DNA of 64,000 bases. Origin: Thioalkalivibrio sp. XN279. GTDB lineage: Bacteria; Pseudomonadota; Gammaproteobacteria; Steroidobacterales; XN24. Numbering within the stretch: position 1 is the stretch's first letter; every line of letters starts with the position of its first letter. The notes below the pieces were generated by a model. The model did not search any database and was not told the DNA's origin. It saw only the letters and a list, made by a program, of their open reading frames with translations. The stretch spans positions 310,001 through 374,000 of the forward strand of contig NZ_JAANBD010000028.1 of NCBI RefSeq assembly GCF_011089885.1, given 5' to 3'. Below, one piece after another: positions 4,161 through 4,859 of the stretch. The position numbers were made by a program, and so were the translations under genes.

Positions 4161-4236
4161 TGGTGGGCCGCGAAGGAATCGAACCTTCAACCTGCGGATT
4201 AAGAGTCCGTTGCTCTGCCAATTGAGCTAGCGGCCC
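4161..4236 (-). tRNA. tRNA-Lys(CUU)
   Basis: Minus-strand cloverleaf with acceptor GGGCCGC/GCGGCCC, encoded CCA (4161-4163), D arm GCTCAATTGGCAGAGC, T loop TTCGATT and anticodon loop CTCTTAA, so the anticodon is CTT (reads AAG). Last member of the Pro-Arg-His-Lys array; the terminator follows directly. Confidence 0.95.
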
Positions 4237-4324: not shown

Positions 4325-4401
4325 TGGGGTGGACGATGGGACTCGAACCCACGACGACCGGGATCACAACCCGGGGCTCTACCAACTGAGCTACGTCCAC
4401 C
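4325..4401 (-). tRNA. tRNA-His(GUG)
   Basis: Minus-strand cloverleaf with anticodon loop TTGTGAT (anticodon GTG), acceptor GTGGACG/CGTCCAC, encoded CCA (4325-4327), and the His-specific extra G at -1 (complement of 4401) opposite discriminator C73 (complement of 4328). Third tRNA of the array. Confidence 0.96.
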
Positions 4402-4439: not shown

Positions 4440-4743
4440 TGGCGCGCCCGGCAGGACTCGAACCTGCAACCCTCGGCTTAGCTTACCAACTACCGCTTTC
4501 GCGGCCCCGCAATACAGCGAGTTTGTGGTCTGGACTATCCCTTCGCCATCTCAGGCGCCGCACGTCTAGTCTCTACGGAGCCCCGCGTCGATCAGGTTGA
4601 TATCGGCAGGTTTCCACGGGATTGCCATCAGCATGACCTGTTAAGGTTTCCCCGTTACGGTGCGGTCCACTGGGGCGGTTCCGTTTTCCGCTCCAGGCTC
4701 CTCACTCAAAGGCCGATGCTCTGTCCGGTTGAGCTACGGGCGC
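4440..4743 (-). tRNA. tRNA-Arg(UCU), split by a group I intron
   Basis: The 5' exon (4743-4709, 35 nt) and 3' exon (4481-4440, 42 nt, with CCA) join into a standard tRNA-Arg: acceptor GCGCCCG/CGGGCGC, D arm AGCTC...AGAGC, anticodon stem TCGGC/GCCGA, loop CTTCTAA and T loop TTCGAGT. The spliced anticodon is TCT (reads AGA), and the loop matches E. coli tRNA-Arg(UCU) as I recall it. The break falls between anticodon positions 34 and 35, so a scanner that does not model introns will miss this gene. It lies between tRNA-Pro and tRNA-His, comparable to the argX-hisR-leuT-proM array of E. coli. Confidence 0.93.
4482..4708 (-). ncRNA. Group I intron (IC3-like) in the tRNA-Arg(UCU) anticodon loop
   Basis: The 227-nt intron has the diagnostic parts. 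P1: exon CCUU (4712-4709) pairs with internal guide GAGG (4703-4700), giving a U-G wobble exactly at the 5' splice site after U34. The last intron base is G (complement of 4482), the omega G. The catalytic core shows AGAGACTAGACG (complement of 4563-4574) and GAAGGGATAGTCCAG (complement of 4530-4544), whose AGACTA/TAGTC parts form the P7 guanosine site. These are nearly the same as in the Azoarcus tRNA-Ile intron as I remember it. There is no room for a homing endonuclease ORF. Self-splicing is expected, not proven. Confidence 0.9.
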
Positions 4744-4782: not shown

Positions 4783-4859
4783 TGGTCGGGGCAGAGGGAT
4801 TCGAACCCCCGACCTTCTGCTCCCAAAGCAGACGCGCTACCAGACTGCGCTATGCCCCG
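4783..4859 (-). tRNA. tRNA-Pro(UGG)
   Basis: Minus-strand cloverleaf with acceptor CGGGGCA/TGCCCCG, encoded CCA (4783-4785), anticodon loop TTTGGGA (anticodon TGG) and T loop TTCGAAT. First tRNA of the array, starting 24 nt after a well-formed promoter. Confidence 0.96.

Follow-up and report, generated by a model that had tools for sequence, protein, structure and literature searches.

Group I introns of the IC3 type are found in the anticodon loops of bacterial tRNA genes, such as tRNA-Leu(UAA), the tRNA-Ile(CAU) of Azoarcus, and the tRNA-Arg(CCU) of Agrobacterium. Homing elements may go through a cyclic process of gain, decay, and loss, the Goddard-Burt cycle, of which yeast mitochondria offer the best-known examples. 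A group I intron in the anticodon loop of the cyanobacterial tRNA-fMet encodes the small PD-(D/E)XK endonuclease I-Ssp6803I, whose enzyme class is listed in PMC3943268. According to a 2014 review, the phage introns known up to that time were all located in protein-coding genes (PMC3984707).

The locus described here lies in a stretch of 64,000 nucleotides from Thioalkalivibrio sp. XN279, referred to as the window, in which a tRNA-Arg(UCU) gene is interrupted. The element is very probably a decayed and immobile self-splicing intron of the IC3 type, located in the sole tRNA-Arg(UCU) gene of its genome and derived from a mobile homing intron that crosses phyla, and it would still be spliced, given that the decoding of AGA depends on this. 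No earlier report of a group I intron in tRNA-Arg(UCU) was found in the literature searched, from which subscription papers were mostly absent, and a prior description is possible.

The interrupted gene and its array

In the intron mode of ARAGORN, window positions 4440-4743 of the minus strand are called as a tRNA-Arg(tct) with a mature length of 77 nt and a 227-nt intron after tRNA nucleotide 35 of the program's own count, which is the canonical position 34/35 in the anticodon loop. This agrees with the sequence-only reading made earlier of the same DNA, which had placed 227 nt between positions 34 and 35, while no tRNA is called at 4440-4743 when the intron mode is not used. The spliced exons give a perfect cloverleaf and match the uninterrupted tRNA-Arg(UCU) of most of the other members of the order that were searched, with the 42 nt of the 3' exon being identical, or nearly so, to those of the intronless relatives. 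The array in which the gene sits, also recognized in that reading, is common to the relatives: the 24 intronless tRNA-Arg(UCU) loci that were read all adjoin a tRNA-Pro, and their usual setting is the same Pro-Arg-His-Lys(-Leu) array as that of the window (Table 1). In one family of the same order (f16), the tRNA-Lys(CUU) of this array is interrupted by another group I intron, which is recognized by RF00028, has 216-217 nt, and is inserted at approximately 37/38 (L016:1694-1986 and L015:2571-2864).

Table 1. Coordinates of the intron, its exons, and the neighbouring tRNA genes in the window
Feature	Position	Strand	Evidence
tRNA-Lys(CUU), downstream neighbour	4161..4236	-	ARAGORN
tRNA-His(GUG), downstream neighbour	4325..4400	-	ARAGORN
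3' exon of tRNA-Arg(UCU), from C35-U36, with encoded CCA at end	4440..4481	-	ARAGORN intron mode
Omega G, last intron base	4482..4482	-	G in all 27 relatives
Group I intron, IC3-type, 227 nt	4482..4708	-	ARAGORN intron mode, tRNA-intron profile, covariation
P9 hairpin, GAAA loop	4493..4504	-	100% paired, 4/4 pairs compensated
P8 hairpin	4544..4557	-	100% paired, 3/4 pairs compensated
P7 5' strand GACTA (3' strand TAGTC 4537-4533), guanosine-binding helix	4567..4571	-	Invariant 23/23
P6 5' strand and loop, site of the endonuclease gene in related introns	4581..4615	-	
P4 5' strand (3' strand 4621-4616)	4650..4655	-	99.3% paired
P3 5' strand (3' strand 4563-4558), pseudoknotted with P7	4660..4665	-	100% paired, 5/6 compensated
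P2 5' strand (3' strand 4678-4670)	4688..4696	-	8/9 pairs compensated
Guide GAG, pairs with C32-U33-U34 (U34-G wobble, 5' splice site)	4698..4700	-	Conserved, 27 relatives
5' exon of tRNA-Arg(UCU), last base U34 (4709)	4709..4743	-	ARAGORN intron mode; matches intronless relatives
tRNA-Pro(UGG), upstream neighbour in conserved array	4783..4859	-	ARAGORN

When the tRNA hits of the genome, which is 99.9% complete, were typed, the tRNA-Arg set was found to comprise ACG, CCG, CCU, and the single, intron-bearing UCU, and no second tRNA-Arg(UCU) gene was found. This is in line with the earlier proposal that the reading of AGA depends on splicing if there is no second copy. It might be argued that the insertion is dead, with the tRNA gene reduced to a pseudogene and AGA read by other means, and the rarity of this codon (23 among the approximately 17,200 codons in a rough set of ORFs) would favour this. 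AGA is nevertheless present, the anticodon CCU is unable to read it under the wobble rules, and the sole UCU gene, the intact cloverleaf formed by its exons, and the compensatory changes that keep the helices of the intron family leave such an interpretation highly improbable.

Fold and splice sites of the intron

The intron contains the core segments AGAGACTAGACG and ATAGTCCAG and, as had been proposed, these form P7, whose pairing GACUA/UAGUC is unchanged in the 23 relatives that were aligned for the analysis of covariation in helices P2, P3, P4, P5, P5a, P6, P7, P8, and P9. Compensatory change was found in 25 of the 42 pairs of this P2-P9 model, in which 99.1% of the cells are paired, against 83.2% in the shuffled and 30-45% in the slid versions, and the cells changed on both sides number 158, against 46.6 in the shuffles; as this model was outlined manually on the window sequence, it is favoured in the comparison with the slid versions, although not in that with the shuffles. 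None of the sequences lacks the pairing of P3, the helix whose pseudoknot with P7 is diagnostic. The single-sequence folding of the window intron gives a z of -0.9 and is uninformative.

When searched with nhmmer, a profile built on the introns of other tRNAs (82 sequences) has the window intron as its only match in the window (E 1e-22), and recovers it at E 8e-5 when the motif used for selection is masked; the score of 75.1 bits compares with a maximum of 22.8 in 200 shuffles in which the motif is kept. From the covariation, with its P3 pseudoknot, and this profile match, the element is identified as a group I intron, which upholds the sequence-only reading, and its similarity to the other bacterial tRNA introns of the profile assigns it to the IC3 type. 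On the other hand, the match to the Rfam model RF00028 on which that reading had staked this identity failed, even at E up to 10. The same model misses eight other loci that hold relatives of the window intron, whereas the introns of tRNA-Ile, tRNA-Lys(CUU), tRNA-Leu, and tRNA-Arg(CCU), used as controls, score 34-81 bits. Given this, the failure is judged to be a limit of the model, which is blind to the whole family of tRNA-Arg(UCU) introns.

At the 5' splice site, a U-G wobble in a helix of CCUU with GAGG had been suggested. The wobble is retained by 27 relatives, but the register is not: CCUU and GAGG can pair in the window, although this pairing is not kept across these relatives, and the conserved helix, CUU with GAG, lies three bases further 3'. 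The GGAGC that contains this GAG is kept among the same relatives, the conservation of CUU/GAG having been scored in 26 of the 27 by script and in the last (L035) by eye. The terminal omega G that had been predicted is equally constant, and the AG at 4702-4701 can pair with C35-U36 as P10. Based on this conserved anatomy and the established chemistry of group I introns, both transesterification steps may be proposed: the pairing of C32-U33-U34 with the guide would mark the 5' splice site by the resulting U-G wobble, a guanosine occupying P7 would cut after U34, and U34 would then attack after the omega G, being joined to C35-U36 with the release of the intron.

Introns of the archaeal or eukaryotic kind, which are spliced by proteins with no ribozyme, have their usual site at 37/38. 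The window intron shares with them its place in the anticodon loop and nothing else, and its position at 34/35, together with a group I architecture that includes the P3/P7 pseudoknot, the U-G wobble, and the omega G, makes an origin of this kind exceedingly improbable.

The endonuclease, distribution, and descent of the family

The P6 loop of the window intron has approximately 30 nt, with no detectable remnant of an endonuclease gene; no ORF was found in the intron, as the sequence-only reading had it, and no match to a PF11645 protein anywhere in the genome. The same loop holds an ORF of 142 codons in a related intron (genome G015), which matches PF11645 at E 7e-40, and a profile of seven endonuclease sequences reaches 2ost, which we take to be I-Ssp6803I, at E 2e-5. 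FDL...QVK is invariant in the seven aligned copies, which thus contain the motif D...QxK, and from its sequence the ORF of the relatives is identified as a PD-(D/E)XK endonuclease of the I-Ssp6803I type. Among the 63 introns examined at this same site, 20 have an intact endonuclease ORF (PF11645), 10 have remnants, including that of a sister species (G002), and 33, including that of the window, have no detectable trace, so that, with the empty sites, the alleles of a single site form a series of armed, broken, and bare introns. The intact copies have a median dN/dS of 0.14 in a simple pairwise count, which indicates that they evolve under purifying selection.

The endonuclease in the P6 loop of the related introns would cut the intronless tRNA-Arg(UCU), and the repair of the break would copy the intron into the gene. 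In the genus of the window, the site would have been occupied in this manner, with the subsequent loss of the endonuclease gene, and the remaining ribozyme would be incapable of moving by itself, while having to splice for AGA to be read. We infer the cleavage and the mobility from the relatives, and the loss as well, given that the window copy has no detectable trace of its own. No endonuclease match that would point to plasmids as the vehicle was found among the plasmids searched.

A model of the 3' half of the intron (R1), which splits the tRNA-Arg(UCU) family from other tRNA introns, has matches of at least 91 bits in 39 of the 396 genomes of the order, in five families, with every weaker match being at or below 73 bits. 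Approximately 83 further genomes of the order (for example, in families f11 and f12) have matches of 33-73 bits, at times two per genome, which are probably group I introns of other tRNA genes. About 20 loci of at least 80 bits were found among 369 sampled genomes of the class, and introns at the same site are also present in the Bacillota (Melghirimyces, Ferdinandcohnia, Bacillus, Alkalicoccobacillus, and Exiguobacterium), in the Gammaproteobacteria, Bacteroidota, and Acidobacteriota, and in phage contigs. The class is identified as Gammaproteobacteria from the intron cores: that of one genome of the class is identical to the core of a locus named Arenicellales, and that of another to the core of a locus named Gammaproteobacteria. 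By sequence comparison, the family thus spans at least four phyla as well as phage contigs, and the intron, which the sequence-only reading had considered less usual in the tRNA-Arg(UCU) of a gammaproteobacterium, is not an isolated oddity.

The sequence-only reading had also considered the intron to be probably inherited vertically, which holds within the genus, where all three species have it and the trees of the intron and of rpoB agree, whereas at higher ranks it does not hold. No intron was found in the other members of the family that were searched, four in number, and, in a tree of 189 columns whose bootstrap had not settled, the introns of the genus nest in a supported clade (98/99) in which another family, f7, predominates, accompanied by f10 and some of f6, among relatives with intact endonucleases. 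An ancient and strictly vertical feature of the order, with many losses by precise deletion and no part played by mobility in its distribution, would also produce the agreement of the trees within the genus, and it would be consistent with the single site and single syntenic array of all the copies. However, approximately nine-tenths of the genomes of the order, which, like the others compared, are mostly metagenome assemblies, have no intron, and a topology that unites five f6 introns in a single clade is rejected (p-AU 0.005), even though their hosts form one rpoB clade (97). In addition, G015 has the intron while its congeners G028 and G040 do not, and the purifying selection on the intact endonucleases also speaks against such a history, which is considered unlikely. 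Misbinning of the G015 contig was set aside, given that the intron has a native upstream flank, 92.9% identical to that of the intronless G028. This same genome has a second, intronless tRNA-Arg(UCU) (L197, G015:C32:3000-6000, at 1175-1331), preceded by a truncated tRNA-Pro, in a foreign context, as if it were the remnant of an integrated element.

In a scan of viral contigs, the matches listed include the same intron in the tRNA-Arg(UCU) of contigs with phage genes, such as those for RNA and DNA polymerase and exonuclease (L385) or terminase (L336). An HNH endonuclease is found inside the intron in two cases (L348 and L357), while L336 has a PF11645 protein directly downstream of the interrupted tRNA, outside the intron, and a relative of PF11645 directly follows an intact tRNA-Arg(UCU) in the Acinetobacter phage Herod (L409) and the Synechococcus phage Sf-FR1 (L408). 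In these two phages, the free-standing endonuclease is placed as if guarding its target site. At least 120 viral contigs (L288-L407) have the IC3 core motif, which was located in tRNA genes by the intron mode of ARAGORN in 101 of the 120 among the matches listed; tRNA-Leu(UAA) is the commonest host in the viral contigs listed, and one is called Tyr(ata). The 484-kb uncultured phage LR756508 has two adjoining intron-bearing tRNAs (L410:1360-2010), a Lys(UUU) with an intron of the IC3 tRNA type at 34/35 and an Arg(UCU) with a 175-nt intron. In the Microcoleus phage My-WqHQDG (L413), the annotated 286-nt tRNA-Arg is a tRNA-Arg(CCU) interrupted by a group I-like intron of 213 nt, and it adjoins a PD-(D/E)XK gene.

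A tentative reading, somewhat less probable than its contrary, is that the intron is part of a single homing lineage which passes back and forth among phages and bacteria from several phyla by way of the anticodon region of tRNA-Arg(UCU), which is nearly invariant. As part of this, and with equal reserve, the phages might hold other stages of that lineage, that is, an intronless tRNA-Arg(UCU) with an adjoining free-standing PF11645 endonuclease, an interrupted tRNA whose intron does not include the endonuclease, which lies outside it, and an intron that itself encloses an HNH endonuclease. If so, an assembly line for mobile tRNA introns would be visible. With phages that have the same intron, or a free-standing endonuclease beside the tRNA, both phage transfer and the way in which mobile introns arise can be tested.

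Comparison with known systems

The intron form of this gene is missed by both default ARAGORN and RF00028, so that the tRNA gene that reads AGA is hidden in many bacteria, and genomes can wrongly appear to be without tRNA-Arg(UCU). Given that empty, endonuclease-bearing, decaying, and stripped alleles are all found at one site in one order, it can be measured how fast a homing element is gained, decays, and is lost in an essential gene.

The IC3 introns of tRNA-Leu(UAA), Azoarcus tRNA-Ile(CAU), and Agrobacterium tRNA-Arg(CCU) have the same core motifs and helices as that of the window, with a similar length and a site in the anticodon loop, which is also 34/35 in the tRNA-Leu(UAA) introns found in this analysis. 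The present family differs in its host, tRNA-Arg(UCU), in the 24-nt spacing between the two core motifs, which is fixed in nearly all its members, in its separation by R1 in the order search, and in being unseen by RF00028. The tRNA-fMet intron with I-Ssp6803I likewise combines a small PD-(D/E)XK endonuclease with an anticodon-loop group I intron, as do the relatives of the window intron, although the tRNA here is another, the endonuclease sequences of the relatives are only distantly related, and the window's copy would have lost the gene. Finally, the intact, internally deleted, minimal, and empty alleles found at one site in one bacterial order resemble those of the Goddard-Burt cycle, but, in contrast with the yeast cases, the element here has as its target a bacterial tRNA gene with no second copy, and copies of the intron would thus persist only if they splice.
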